DNA of 64,000 bases from Bacteroidota bacterium. Its GTDB lineage: Bacteria > Bacteroidota > Bacteroidia > NS11-12g > UBA9320. The position numbers and the translations under genes are program-made. The notes beneath the pieces were generated by a model that was given only the letters and a program-made list of their open reading frames with translations, had not been told where the DNA came from and did no database searches. Location: NCBI GenBank assembly GCA_013359235.1, contig JABWCE010000013.1:1-64000 (forward strand), read 5' to 3'. Below, in pieces: positions 1 to 61,442 of the stretch (the first letter of the stretch is position 1; every line of letters begins with the position of its first letter).

Positions 1-2454
<2,454 letters not shown>

Positions 2455-50387: not shown

Positions 50388-51116
50388 TTAAAAATTTGGG
50401 CTTAAAGAATATTTGCTGTAAAAATCAATTATTTCTTCGGCTGCTTCATTAGCTGTATCAACAACTTTTAATAAAAAAATATCTTCAGTATCTGCGTTAT
50501 TTTCTTGGTCAATCAATACATTTTTAATCCAATCAATCAAACCATTCCAATAATCTTTACCTACAAGTACTATTGGAAATTTTTCAACTTTGCGGGTTTG
50601 AACAAGAGTGAGGGCTTCAAAAAGCTCGTCGAGTGTGCCAAAACCACCGGGCAATACTATAAAACCTTGAGCGTATTTCATAAACATTACTTTTCTAACA
50701 AAGAAAAATTTAAACTGAATTAATTTATCATAATCTATGAATTTGTTTGGAAATTGCTCAAAAGGCAAATTGATGTTTAATCCTACTGATTTACCGCCCG
50801 ATTCTGTTGCACCTTTATTAGCAGCTTCCATAATTCCAGGACCGCCTCCTGTAATTACACCTAAGCCAACTTTACTCAAAATTGATGCAATTTCGTGAGC
50901 TTGTTCATAATATTTTGTTCCTGGTTTAGTCCGTGCCGAACCAAAAATTGAAACACATGGGCCTATTCGGGCAAGTGTATCATAACCATCAACAAATTCA
51001 CTCATTATTTTAAATATGTTCCAACTGTCTGAGCTTTTTATTTCCGGCCATTTTTGCAATTCAAATGCTTTCTTTATTTTTTTATCAAGATGAAAATGAT
51101 TTTTGTTTTTTCTCAT
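50388..51116 (-). CDS. LOG-family nucleotide phosphoribohydrolase-like protein
   Basis: This 242-residue Rossmann protein has GGGPGIMEAANKGA and PGGFGTLDELFEAL, the two signatures of LOG (TIGR00730-type) proteins. Members release the base from cytokinin or other nucleoside monophosphates. The bacterial substrate here is unknown, so the old label lysine decarboxylase should not be used. It is head-to-head with a clear paralogue at 51228. ATG 51116 is preferred to a TTG at 51128. Confidence 0.9.
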   Translation of the reverse strand: MRKNKNHFHLDKKIKKAFELQKWPEIKSSDSWNIFKIMSEFVDGYDTLARIGPCVSIFGSARTKPGTKYYEQAHEIASILSKVGLGVITGGGPGIMEAANKGATESGGKSVGLNINLPFEQFPNKFIDYDKLIQFKFFFVRKVMFMKYAQGFIVLPGGFGTLDELFEALTLVQTRKVEKFPIVLVGKDYWNGLIDWIKNVLIDQENNADTEDIFLLKVVDTANEAAEEIIDFYSKYSLSPNF

Positions 51117-51227
51117 TTTTTTATGCAAATCAAGATAATAAGTGATTTATTTAAAAACAAATTGACAAATAATTTAAAATTTTTAAATATTGTATTTTCA
51201 ATAAGCATTTAGTTTTATTATTGTCTA

Positions 51228-51953
51228 ATGTCAAAATCTAAAGAAGTTATAAAATTTCTTGATGGACCACAATCAAGACTCAGTGATTTATGGTTTGTCA
51301 TAAAAATTACATTTCAATTTATTAAAGGGTTTAGAGTACTTCATTTTGTAGGACCATGTATAACCATATTTGGATCTGCCAGATTTAACTACGAAAATGA
51401 ATATTATAAGGCTACACAAGCTATTGCCGGCAAAATTGCACATTTGGGGTTTACAATAATGACAGGTGGCGGACCCGGAATTATGGAGGCTGCAAATCGT
51501 GGAGCAAAAGACGTTGGGGGAAAATCAGTTGGTTGTAATATTGAATTACCTTTTGAACAGAAACCTAACATTTACATGGATAAGGCTGTAGATATCAGAT
51601 ATTTTTTTGTGAGAAAAACATTACTTTTAAAATATTCTTATGGTTTTGTTGTAATGCCTGGTGGTTTTGGCACACTCGACGAACTATTTGAAGCATTAAC
51701 ATTGATACAAACAAATAAAATCAAAAAATTTCCAATTGCAATTTTCAGTCGGCATTATCATAATGAGCTAATCAAATATATTGATAAAATGTGCTTTGAG
51801 GGAACTATTTCTCCCGAAGATAAACATTTGTATTTAGTATCTGATGACGAAGATGAAATAGTTGAGCATATTAAAAATAATTCAATTAAGCCATTTGGTC
51901 TTAAAATAAAACGCAAAGCATGGAGATTGCTTGGTGAGTATAAATCTTCCTGA
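51228..51953 (+). CDS. LOG-family protein, paralogue of the divergent gene
   Basis: This 241-residue protein shares with its neighbour the segments GPC.(S/T)IFGSAR, TGGGPGIMEAAN.GA, GGKSVG.NI.LPFEQ and PGGFGTLDELFEALTL.QT. The C-terminal ~60 residues and the N-terminus differ. The same fold and active-site motifs imply a phosphoribohydrolase-type activity. The gene is divergent from the first copy across a 111-base spacer that holds at most weak -7-like boxes on both strands. Confidence 0.9.
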   Translation: MSKSKEVIKFLDGPQSRLSDLWFVIKITFQFIKGFRVLHFVGPCITIFGSARFNYENEYYKATQAIAGKIAHLGFTIMTGGGPGIMEAANRGAKDVGGKSVGCNIELPFEQKPNIYMDKAVDIRYFFVRKTLLLKYSYGFVVMPGGFGTLDELFEALTLIQTNKIKKFPIAIFSRHYHNELIKYIDKMCFEGTISPEDKHLYLVSDDEDEIVEHIKNNSIKPFGLKIKRKAWRLLGEYKSS

Positions 51954-54774: not shown

Positions 54775-55659
54775 ATGAAAATAGGAATTTATGCTAGAGC
54801 ATTAAAAAACAAACAGGCAAATGAATGTTTGCAAAACCTTATGAAAAACCTCAGAAATAAGAATATTGAGATTTTTTTACATAAAAATGTTTCAGAATAC
54901 TTTTCAGATACAAAAACCACGGTTGATGAAAAATTTGAGGTATTTAACGAACAAAATATAACTCAAACCAAAATAGATTATTTGCTATGTATTGGCGGTG
55001 ATGGTACCATTTTAGATACTTTAGATATTGTAAGAGATACAGGTATCCCGGTTATGGGTTTTAATACCGGAAGGCTTGGCTATCTAACCACATCTAATAC
55101 CGAAAATATTGATAAAGTAATTGATGAACTTATTTTAAAATCATACAGAATTGATAAAAGAACCTTATTGAAACTTGAAGCAGACCAAGAGCTTTTCAGC
55201 GGGTTTCCTTATGCTTTAAATGATTTTGTAATTCATAAAAAAGACAGTACAAGCATGATTATAGTTCATACATATTTGAATGGTGAATTTATGAATTCGT
55301 ACTGGGCTGATGGACTTATTATAGCTACACCTACAGGCTCTTCGGCTTATTCGTTAAGTTGCGGTGGACCAATACTCATACCAAAATCTGCAAGTTTTGT
55401 AATTACACCTATTGCACCTCACAATTTGAGTGCAAGACCCGTAGTAATACCCGACAATACAGTTCTTACATTTGAAATTGAAGGAAGAGTGAAAAGCTAT
55501 TTGCTTAGCCTCGACAGCAAAAGTTGCTCAATAAAAAAAGGAACTCAAATAGCAGTACGAAAAGCTGATTTTGCTTTTAATTTGATAAGACTTGGTGACG
55601 AAAATTACCTTGATTCGCTAAGAAACAAAATGATGTGGGGCCAGGATATTAGAAATTAA
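54775..55659 (+). CDS. nadK: NAD kinase
   Basis: This 294-residue protein has the kinase motif GGDGT (about residues 74-78) in LLCIGGDGTILD, NTGRLGYL and TPTGSSAYSLSCGGPI, all typical of NAD kinase. It phosphorylates NAD to NADP in the cytoplasm. It follows the Omp85 gene without any gap. The stop overlaps, on the opposite strand, the stop of the response-regulator gene in a shared TTAA. Confidence 0.96.
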   Translation: MKIGIYARALKNKQANECLQNLMKNLRNKNIEIFLHKNVSEYFSDTKTTVDEKFEVFNEQNITQTKIDYLLCIGGDGTILDTLDIVRDTGIPVMGFNTGRLGYLTTSNTENIDKVIDELILKSYRIDKRTLLKLEADQELFSGFPYALNDFVIHKKDSTSMIIVHTYLNGEFMNSYWADGLIIATPTGSSAYSLSCGGPILIPKSASFVITPIAPHNLSARPVVIPDNTVLTFEIEGRVKSYLLSLDSKSCSIKKGTQIAVRKADFAFNLIRLGDENYLDSLRNKMMWGQDIRN

Positions 55660-56696
55660 TACAATAAATGTTTTAGCTTTTCGCGATTTATTATCGTAAT
55701 TTTTCCTTCTTTTATTTCAATTAATTTTTCTGATTTAAAATCGCTAATTGTTCTTATAAGCGACTCGGTTGCTATTCCTATATAACTTGCAAGTTCTTCG
55801 CGTTTTATTTCAAGCAGTGCATCGGTTTCAATATTTCTGAACTTTGAATCAATTTCAATCAAGGTTTTGGCTACTCTCTTTCTAAGATTTCCATAAGCCA
55901 TTATTACAAGTTTATCTTCTTTCTCTTTAATATTTTTAGCAATTGTTTTTATCAATGTATTTGCAACATTTATATCAGAAAAAATCAATTGCATAAATTC
56001 TTCCTTAGGCAAACCAATAACATCGGCATCTTCAATAACAATGGCTGTTTCGTCGTATATTCCATTTCCCAAAAGTGTAAGATATCCCATAAAATCATTT
56101 GCACCGTAAATATCTAAAATTAGTTCTTTGCCTTCTTCGCTAATTTTCACACATTTTACCTTGCCTTTCTTAATAAGATATACGCTTTTGGCATATTTTC
56201 CCTCTTTAAACAACACTTCTTTTTTGGCAAGTTTTTGGCTAATGCCAAATTCTTCAAAAATTTGGTTTATATCAATGCTTTCTTGATTATTTTGGATATC
56301 ACGTGTTTTTTCACTCAACTCGCTTCTTTTAAACCTTGACTCTATAGCATTGAGTAATTCTACATCTTCAAAGGGTTTGGTTATAAAATCGTCAGCTCCC
56401 ATTTCCATTCCTTTTCTAAAATCTGACCTTTCGGTTTTTGCTGTTAAAAAAATAAACGGAATATTTCTGGTAGAATCGCCTTTTCTGATTAGGTGGAGCA
56501 ATGCAAATCCATCCATTTCGGGCATCATAATATCGCAGATTATCATATCCGGATTTTTTTTTATTGCAATTTCGTAGCCTTTTTTTCCATTTTCGCAATT
56601 ATATGTTTTATACCCTGAAAGTTCTAAAATTTCGACTATATTTTCTCTTATATCATCGTGATCTTCTATAATTAATATAACTTTTTTGGTGTTCAT
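55656..56696 (-). CDS. receiver-CRP/FNR fusion response regulator
   Basis: This 346-residue protein has a receiver domain (1-122) with phosphoacceptor D55, T85 and K107, a linker, a cyclic-nucleotide-binding-type beta-roll (about 145-255: KEVLFKEGKYAKSVYLIKKGKV) and a CRP-type helix-turn-helix (about 290-335: REELASYIGIATESLIRTI). The recognition helix keeps the E-x-x-x-R pattern of the CRP/FNR family (E311, R315). The FNR iron-sulfur cysteine pattern is absent. Phosphorylation by the kinase encoded 7 bases upstream is the likely input. This receiver-cNMP-HTH fusion is less common than stand-alone CRP proteins. Confidence 0.92.
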   Translation of the reverse strand: MNTKKVILIIEDHDDIRENIVEILELSGYKTYNCENGKKGYEIAIKKNPDMIICDIMMPEMDGFALLHLIRKGDSTRNIPFIFLTAKTERSDFRKGMEMGADDFITKPFEDVELLNAIESRFKRSELSEKTRDIQNNQESIDINQIFEEFGISQKLAKKEVLFKEGKYAKSVYLIKKGKVKCVKISEEGKELILDIYGANDFMGYLTLLGNGIYDETAIVIEDADVIGLPKEEFMQLIFSDINVANTLIKTIAKNIKEKEDKLVIMAYGNLRKRVAKTLIEIDSKFRNIETDALLEIKREELASYIGIATESLIRTISDFKSEKLIEIKEGKITIINREKLKHLLY

Positions 56697-56703
56697 TTTT
56701 TTT

Positions 56704-58254
56704 TTAATTTTTTGGAATTGAAAAAATAACTCTTGTGCCTTCGTTCAATTTACTTTCAATTTTTATTTTTCCTTTTAATAAATCCAGATGGCGTTTTACA
56801 ATGTGCAAACCAAGACCTGTACCTTGTATGTTCACTGCATTTTTTGACCTGAAAAACGTTGTAAACAAATTCTCTTTGTCTTCATCCGGTATCCCTATTC
56901 CATTATCTTTTATTGTAATTGTAAGCATATCGGGCGTGTTTTCACAATTTATTTCAATTTTGCCATCAGGATATGAAAACTTAATGGCATTAGTCAGCAA
57001 ATTTATGCAAATATTTTTAAGGAGATTTTTATCTGTTTCTATTGTATGACTTCCTTTAAAAGTAAATTCAATGTTTTGTTCAGGTTTTTTTAAAATTTCA
57101 ACTTCGTCAATTGCATGATTAACAATTTCGGTAATGCTTTCTTCATTCAACTGTACATTTATTTTGTTTTCTTCAAGTTTGCCAAATGATAAAAAATCTT
57201 CAAGTATCTCGTTTAGATAGCGTACTGATTCTTTTATTTTTTTAATATGGATATCTCTTTTGCTTTGTTCATCAGAAAGTATGTAGCGTTGCAAAATATT
57301 AGCCGAAGAAAGTATGGTGCTAAGTGGAGTGCGAAACTCGTGTGATGCCATTGAAACAAAACTGCTTTTTATTTCACTCATTTCTTTTTCTTTTTCAAGG
57401 GCATCTTTTAGCTCAAGCTGAGATTTTTCAAGGTTTTGCATTACTTGCTTTAAATTGTTGGTTCGTTCATTCACTTTCTCTTCAAGTTCTTCATTTAATC
57501 TCGCAAGTTGGTCGGTCATTTGTTCAAGTGATTCATTTTTCTGGATAATTATTTTTTCGGAGTTTTTTCTTACAGTAATATCAATAATAAATGCTATTAC
57601 AAAAGTTTTATTTTGGTCATGGTAAGTACTTAGGCTTATTTCTACCGGAAAAACTGAACTGTCTTTTTTTACTCCCATTAAGTCACGCCCCGCCCCCATT
57701 TGCCTGTTTGACGGTGATTTTAAAAAATCCATTCTCATTTTAGGGTGCATATTTTTTTGACTCGCAGGTATAAGTATTTCTACAGGTTTGTTTTTTAGCT
57801 CTGTTTCGGTATATCCAAATAATACACATGCTTTGGGGTTTGCCATTATTATTCTGCCTCTGTCATCGGTAATTAAAATACCTTCGGTAGAGTATTCATA
57901 AAGTAGAAAAAAATGCTTTAAACTTTGTTTTATGTTGTAGTTTAAGTCTAAAATAAACAGCGATACAATAGTACTAATGAAAATAAGAAATAATGTTCCC
58001 CAGTAAATCATTCGGTCTTCATTTACAAGGTTTTGCTCTTTAAAAATTATTGGTAGCAAACCAAAAAGTAAACCAACTCCAAGTCCACTGTACAATGTAA
58101 TTTTCTTATTGTTAAAAACAAGACTTATAAAAATAAGATTGATAAATACAAGATTTAAGGTTTTAAAATCACCTGTAAGAGCACCTAAAAGCATTATAAG
58201 CGTAAAGGTTGATAATATTACGAAAGTTACAGAGTTTTTCTTAAAATCTGCCAT
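56704..58254 (-). CDS. PAS-domain sensor histidine kinase with FixL-like residues
   Basis: This 516-residue protein has about four membrane spans (about 10-105), a PAS domain (about 115-230), a coiled coil (240-295), a dimerisation domain with phosphorylated H305 in SMASHEFRTPLS, and an ATPase domain (NLLTNAIKFS, DNGIGIP, GTGLGLHI). In the PAS domain, H170 and R190 sit in the same places and at the same 20-residue spacing as the heme ligand and oxygen-contacting Arg of FixL. The segment GAGRDLMGVKKDSSVFPVE is close to FixL. Many non-heme PAS domains share part of this motif, so heme binding is a hypothesis. It forms an operon with the receiver-CRP regulator. Confidence 0.9.
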   Translation of the reverse strand: MADFKKNSVTFVILSTFTLIMLLGALTGDFKTLNLVFINLIFISLVFNNKKITLYSGLGVGLLFGLLPIIFKEQNLVNEDRMIYWGTLFLIFISTIVSLFILDLNYNIKQSLKHFFLLYEYSTEGILITDDRGRIIMANPKACVLFGYTETELKNKPVEILIPASQKNMHPKMRMDFLKSPSNRQMGAGRDLMGVKKDSSVFPVEISLSTYHDQNKTFVIAFIIDITVRKNSEKIIIQKNESLEQMTDQLARLNEELEEKVNERTNNLKQVMQNLEKSQLELKDALEKEKEMSEIKSSFVSMASHEFRTPLSTILSSANILQRYILSDEQSKRDIHIKKIKESVRYLNEILEDFLSFGKLEENKINVQLNEESITEIVNHAIDEVEILKKPEQNIEFTFKGSHTIETDKNLLKNICINLLTNAIKFSYPDGKIEINCENTPDMLTITIKDNGIGIPDEDKENLFTTFFRSKNAVNIQGTGLGLHIVKRHLDLLKGKIKIESKLNEGTRVIFSIPKN

Positions 58255-60040: not shown

Positions 60041-60128
60041 TTGTCATACAAATTTTTAATAAATGATGTTAGTCAGAAAGTTTAATGATATTGGTCAATA
60101 GCATGAATAGCACCTTGAGCAAAAAAAA

Positions 60129-60999: not shown

Positions 61000-61007
61000 T
61001 ATCTTTG
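61000..61007 (+). promoter_or_regulatory. -7 box (TATCTTTG) for the PTPS-family gene
   Basis: TATCTTTG matches TAnnTTTG exactly and ends 12 bases before ATG 61020. An in-frame TTG at 61005 overlaps the box and is rejected as the start. Confidence 0.6.
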
Positions 61008-61019
61008 CCATTTAAAAAA

Positions 61020-61442
61020 ATGGAAAATAATAAGGGAGTGGTTTTTGTTACCCGAAAACTGCATTTTAATGCTGCTCACAGGCTTTATAACGACAACTGG
61101 AGCCAAGATAAAAACTATGAAATATATGGCAAATGCTCTAATAAAAACTGGCATGGGCATAATTTTGATTTATTTGTAACTGTAAAAGGAATACCAAACC
61201 CAGAAACTGGTTTTGTTATAAATTTTACAGAGTTAAAAGACATTGTGAATGATTTGATAGTTGAAAAATTAGACCATCTTAATCTAAACTTGGATGTTGA
61301 ATTTATGCAAGGTAAAATTACAACAATAGAAAACCTTGTGGTTGCAATATGGAATGAGCTTTTGCCTCATATAAAAGGTGTTGAATTACATTGCATCAAA
61401 ATTTTTGAAACCGAAAGGCAGTTTGTAGAATACTACGGTTAG
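61020..61442 (+). CDS. 6-pyruvoyl-tetrahydropterin synthase / QueD family enzyme
   Basis: This 140-residue protein has zinc ligands H20 (FNAAHRL), H45 and H47 (WHGHNFD) and catalytic C39, with the C-x5-HGH spacing of PTPS and QueD enzymes. QueD makes 6-carboxytetrahydropterin for queuosine and other deazapurines; PTPS makes a biopterin precursor. No que or fol genes adjoin, so the exact reaction is open, with QueD more likely in a bacterium. ATG 61020 is chosen because an upstream TTG lies in the promoter box. Confidence 0.87.
   Translation: MENNKGVVFVTRKLHFNAAHRLYNDNWSQDKNYEIYGKCSNKNWHGHNFDLFVTVKGIPNPETGFVINFTELKDIVNDLIVEKLDHLNLNLDVEFMQGKITTIENLVVAIWNELLPHIKGVELHCIKIFETERQFVEYYG

Follow-up and report, generated by a model that had tools for sequence, protein, structure and literature searches.

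A candidate FixL-like kinase and its receiver-CRP partner: a possible oxygen relay in Bacteroidota

Introduction

Among described systems, the closest to the locus analyzed here is the rhizobial FixL-FixJ-FixK cascade, in which the sensor (SmFixL) combines a membrane part with a heme PAS domain and a kinase, and residue R220 of FixL stabilises the bound O2. The same PAS subfamily, with its F-alpha His and its fold, occurs in DosP (EcDos), which differs from the kinase described below in being a c-di-GMP phosphodiesterase that uses Met as sixth heme ligand, whereas here the PAS domain drives a kinase. A third point of comparison is provided by FNR and the one-component oxygen regulators of the CRP family, with which our regulator shares a CRP-type output and a box resembling TGAT-N4-ATCA; it lacks a Cys cluster, and its input is a receiver rather than an Fe-S cluster or a cyclic nucleotide.

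The locus lies in a contig of a Bacteroidota bacterium of the UBA9320 lineage (GCA_013359235.1, JABWCE010000013.1), of which the first 64,000 nucleotides were analyzed, hereafter called the window. With the rhizobial cascade it shares the membrane anchor, a PAS domain of the same subfamily in which His and Arg align with their FixL counterparts, the type of kinase, a receiver, an output of CRP/FNR type and a box of FixK/FNR type, together with the presence of cbb3 oxidase and FixGHI-type genes near the equivalent gene pairs of its relatives. It differs in that receiver and CRP output form one protein, with neither a LuxR-type output nor a separate FixK, in the absence of cbb3 oxidase from the genome, and in its bacteroidotal host. 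The literature that we searched says little about how oxygen controls respiration in Bacteroidota, and no published account of a kinase paired with a receiver-CRP protein was found in a search that covered few subscription papers. The pair offers a specific and testable candidate for such control.

By anatomy and context the system would work like FixL-FixJ-FixK, and we consider it fairly probable that it is a two-component relay for oxygen (or another gas) of the FixL kind, with a regulator that combines the roles of FixJ and FixK. We infer the following chain, including heme, ligand, sign of control, phosphotransfer and box binding. Anchored in the membrane, the kinase would bind heme b through H170 of its PAS domain; its activity would depend on a ligand (in the most likely case O2, with R190 holding it), and it would phosphorylate D55 of its receiver-CRP partner; and the CRP/FNR-type output of the latter would bind TGAY-N4-RTCA boxes. 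A single protein would in this way cover the tasks of FixJ (receiver) and FixK (CRP-type activator). Its likely targets in most Bacteroidota would be cbb3 oxidase, the oxidase assembly genes CcoG, CcoH and CcoI, and also HemN and universal stress proteins, while the clearest target remaining in this genome would be the operon to which the regulator itself belongs, reached through the tandem boxes (60064-60097).

Results and Discussion

Layout of the locus

Table 1. Position of the genes, protein sites and putative regulatory boxes in the window
Feature	Coordinates	Strand	Basis
Response regulator, 346 aa	55656..56696	minus	Intact ORF and Pfam
Sensor histidine kinase, 516 aa	56704..58254	minus	Intact ORF and Pfam
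FixL/DosP-type PAS domain of the kinase, aa 113-230	57565..57918	minus	Sequence, profile and predicted fold
R190 codon, counterpart of BjFixL R220 (distal Arg)	57685..57687	minus	Structural register
H170 codon, counterpart of BjFixL H200 (proximal heme ligand)	57745..57747	minus	Structural register
Shortened CcoG/RdxA/FixG homologue, 359 aa	58358..59437	minus	Domain scan and NCBIfam
CcoP membrane anchor (N-terminal part, lacking the cytochrome c domains), 163 aa	59510..60001	minus	CcoP profile
FNR/FixK-type box TGACTAACATCA, upstream of the CcoP-anchor, CcoG, kinase and regulator genes	60064..60075	minus	Motif and conservation in sister species
FNR/FixK-type box TGACCAATATCA, 22 bp from the other box	60086..60097	minus	Motif and conservation in sister species
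Universal stress protein, 260 aa	60129..60911	minus	Domain scan

A preliminary description of the window had placed a kinase and regulator pair at 55656-58254, where both open reading frames are indeed found intact on the minus strand, separated by 7 bp (table 1). On this strand the genes follow one another in the order universal stress protein, CcoP anchor, CcoG, kinase and regulator, the last meeting an NAD kinase gene that arrives on the opposite strand. Constraint is strong on both the kinase (pN/pS 0.15) and the regulator (pN/pS 0.10). Elsewhere in the window, two related LOG/lysine-decarboxylase-like genes (named by eye) lie back to back in opposite orientation, at 50388-51128 (minus) and 51228-51953 (plus).

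The receiver-CRP regulator

The fusion of a receiver with a CRP/FNR module, also proposed in the preliminary description, is borne out by Pfam, which recognises Response_reg (receiver, residues 7-119), cNMP_binding (154-240) and HTH_Crp_2 (273-344). The receiver contains D12, D55, T85 and K107, D55 being the invariant phospho-acceptor Asp. Inspection of the regulator sequence revealed neither the Arg-Ser pair of the cAMP pocket nor a Cys cluster of FNR type, which excludes a CRP protein driven by cAMP or by an Fe-S cluster; since the output half has neither feature, phosphorylation is likely to be the input signal. Defined by its domains, the protein can be classed neither as FixJ nor as FixK: it has the receiver of the former, but cNMP_binding and HTH_Crp_2 replace the LuxR/GerE-type output, and it has the cNMP fold and Crp-type HTH of FixK and FNR, but its N-terminal receiver means that it does not stand alone. 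The model of the whole regulator is of moderate quality (pLDDT 82, pTM 0.41) and was kept out of the argument.

Distribution of the pair in Bacteroidota

Relatives with the same receiver-CRP architecture number at least 573 confirmed candidates, and the best 80 of these all belong to Bacteroidota as far as they are named. A kinase adjoins the receiver-CRP gene in 105 of 115 Bacteroidota loci examined, and such candidate pairs, with predicted binding sites, are present in the culturable genera Pedobacter, Mucilaginibacter, Chitinophaga and Flavobacterium. Genes related to cbb3 oxidase (CcoNO, CcoP, CcoG, CcoH or CcoI) lie within about 8 kb of the pair in 46 of the 115 loci, the oxidase itself in 30; by our own estimate, chance alone would place a cbb3 locus in a 17-kb stretch about 1% of the time or less (3-5 Mb genome, one locus). 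Universal stress proteins are found near the pair in 39 loci and HemN in 14 (one HemN confirmed by NCBIfam). Across 97 relatives the regulator and cbb3 oxidase are loosely associated, FixO being present in about 29 of the 43 genomes with the regulator and 16 of the 54 without it, by a hand count without correction for relatedness. At one locus (L042:9486-12112, genome G053) CcoP and CcoG lie beside the pair, yet CcoNO was not detected when this genome was searched for FixO.

The idea that the FixL-FixJ-FixK relay has been shortened here to a single regulator, as first suggested from the DNA alone, is supported by the anatomy and by the context, namely the FixK-like box and the cbb3, CcoI, HemN and Usp neighbours of the relatives. 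The arrangement extends across the phylum and is not peculiar to this organism, and it need not reflect descent from FixJ and FixK. The regulator tree places the sequences of the window and of its sister species on a long stem within those of Chitinophagaceae, away from the other members of the genus and family to which they belong, a placement that suggests acquisition of the receiver-CRP regulator by transfer.

Putative binding boxes

An unbiased count of dyads in 716 intergenic regions returned TGAC-N4-GTCA (57 vs 1.6 expected) and TGAT-N4-ATCA (98 vs 6.8 expected) as the top palindromes. Their combined form, TGAY-N4-RTCA, which belongs to the TGA-N6-TCA type of palindrome read by FixK/FNR proteins, is present upstream of 58 of 98 operons. 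The 64 kb of the window contain only three such sites, two of which are packed into the 127 bp that precede the gene of the 163-aa protein (Poisson chance about 7e-6); both are conserved blocks in the sister species, the rest of whose spacer has diverged. In the sampled part of the predicted regulon, sites also precede a small number of genes, among them that of a thioredoxin reductase.

It may be asked whether these boxes belong instead to another protein of Crp/FNR type, which would control the operon of a genuine kinase and regulator from outside. Three other Crp-type regulators are encoded in this genome, and TGAY-N4-RTCA is also overrepresented in genomes that lack the receiver-CRP protein, as expected of a general Crp/FNR type of box; a genome-wide link between box number and regulator is unsupported for the same reason. 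This genome itself has no overall excess (77 sites vs 81 for the control). Since the box is common elsewhere and not in excess here, its assignment to the receiver-CRP regulator rests on position. Density in intergenic DNA reaches 3.0 per kb up to 2 kb from the regulator gene, against 1.3-1.6 per kb further out, 0.1 in coding DNA and about 0.05 per kb for three control dyads in intergenic DNA within the same 2 kb. Moreover, the HTH of the regulator carries an E...R pair of the kind usual in Crp-family proteins whose targets are TGA half-sites. Control of the operon by an outside protein consequently appears unlikely, and we favor binding of the tandem boxes by the receiver-CRP regulator.

The sensor kinase and its PAS domain

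The N-terminus of the kinase has four predicted membrane segments (residues 7-30, 29-48, 52-72 and 81-108), followed by the PAS domain (about 113-231), a coiled coil, HisKA (296-362) and HATPase_c (408-515); the Pfam matches (PAS_9/PAS, HisKA, HATPase_c) include the kinase core of FixL-type kinases. Searched alone against the PDB, the PAS domain has FixL and DosP as top sequence matches (E about 1e-8). A profile built from 47 of its relatives retrieves all listed heme-PAS entries (FixL, DosP/EcDos and FG214) at E <= 5e-22, the best other PAS protein being one with a LOV domain (1e-9). FG214 (PDB entry 10jx) is likewise a heme-PAS protein (PMC13060918). The AlphaFold model of the domain is confident (pLDDT 94.7), and Foldseek places FixL, EcDos/DosP and FG214, all heme PAS, at ranks 1-30.

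Superposition with VIA-align sets positions 24..141 of the PAS model on 153..270 of the BjFixL heme domain (114 residues aligned, 1.5 A). Because the offset of 129 is constant at both ends of the alignment, H170 is matched with H200 and R190 with R220, the exact register that had been proposed from the sequence. In the predicted model H170 lies where the F-alpha helix begins, and R190 occupies the G-beta position of the distal Arg of FixL. The predicted fold does not refute a pocket location for H170, as judged from its register with FixL H200 and not from the direction of its side chain. Within the pocket, I206 and L208 retain the hydrophobic pair L236/I238 of FixL. On sequence, the kinase is of the FixL kind in every testable feature: PAS subfamily, proximal His, distal Arg, HisKA and HATPase_c.

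A PAS domain of FixL type is recognisable in 103 of the 107 kinases found in the relatives. Their sequences come in two flavours, one close to the wording of FixL (LMPEPDxSxHDxYI...IIGIGREV), present in Pedobacter, Mucilaginibacter and members of the window's own family, the other that of the window (R.MG.GRDL). Both His and Arg are kept in 66 of the 103. In the 29 of 95 His-bearing sensors without Arg, the position of FixL R220 is occupied by Met in 11 and by Leu in seven; the sensors at L043, L044, L059, L061, L074, L092, L100 and L110 have one or the other. The family thereby provides a set of naturally occurring variants of this position, with Arg, Met, Leu and other residues represented.

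The resemblance to FixL could also be one of fold without heme, the domain sensing another small molecule or serving plain dimerisation, with His and Arg kept by descent. Besides the Arg-less sensors, eight of the 103 domains have no His, so that some family members may bind other ligands or none, and the pocket of our kinase departs from FixL at Q185 (I215 in FixL) and D176 (R206 in FixL). In the FixL/DosP cluster, the His is missing from about 40% of the members (PMC10468136). Against this, the His is invariant in the 47 aligned domains, down to 24% identity with that of the window, and, although this alignment excluded His-less members, 95 of all 103 sensors have the residue; it is unlikely to have been kept in this way if it served no function. 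Chance agreement of H and R is ruled out by profile, fold and conservation. A heme-free domain is therefore improbable, and because profile, fold, register and conservation agree, heme binding by the PAS domain, as the preliminary description had read it, is probable.

Probable loss of the oxidase and the Cco genes present

An aa3-type oxidase and a nitric oxide reductase of the cytochrome c type are encoded in the genome, which measures 2.65 Mb and is estimated by the tool used to be about 100% complete; neither cbb3 oxidase (CcoN/FixO) nor cytochrome bd was found in it, and FixO was also not found in the sister species. Two genes of cbb3 type are present at the locus. The 163-aa protein scores 49.5 bits with the N-terminal profile of CcoP (16.6 bits for the best unrelated ORF) and has a counterpart in the sister species (L039:5252-5731). 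CcoG covers positions 3-321 of a 435-position model, its final quarter being missing, scores 282 bits, below the NCBIfam cut-off of 316.7, and is equally short in the sister (357 aa). Both proteins are probably still in use, since their genes are open in two species at pN/pS 0.37-0.42, with synonymous change saturated. The proposal that CcoG and a universal stress protein next door fit a response to oxygen limitation is correct in that both adjoin the pair; the argument is weak here, as this genome lacks the oxidase that CcoG serves and its CcoG is short, and support for it comes from the relatives instead.

The locus looks like the remains of a cbb3 region after loss of the oxidase, with the sensor relay as its most constrained part; the former presence of the oxidase is deduced from the remnants and from the relatives. 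A broader reading, to which we give a little less than an even chance, is that a heme-PAS/receiver-CRP oxygen relay general to Bacteroidota, serving cbb3 oxidase, heme synthesis and stress, has here outlived its oxidase together with the CcoP anchor and short CcoG, and has been repurposed. It would then be a case of a regulator persisting after its likely main target has gone.

That the PAS domain binds heme but responds instead to nitric oxide (or to CO or redox state), in the service of nitric oxide detoxification, is decidedly improbable: norB and norC are present (G000:C29), cbb3 and bd are absent, and heme-PAS proteins bind NO besides O2 (the FixL-NO structure 1dp8 is among the Foldseek matches), but the Arg of the R220 position is retained, the relatives' pairs neighbour cbb3, CcoI, HemN and Usp genes, no box was seen near norCB in the stretches read, and another Crp-type regulator could serve NO. 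In the stretches read, a symmetric box was found before neither the aa3 oxidase genes nor those of nitric oxide reductase.

Two further observations were made. At L018:242-2112 a Crp-type regulator lies beside a 406-aa polytopic membrane protein, NnrS-like by eye, and is a candidate nitric oxide regulator. The window contains a 6-pyruvoyl-tetrahydropterin synthase-like gene at 61005-61442, and a second gene of this type adjoins norB/norC (L002:974-3151).
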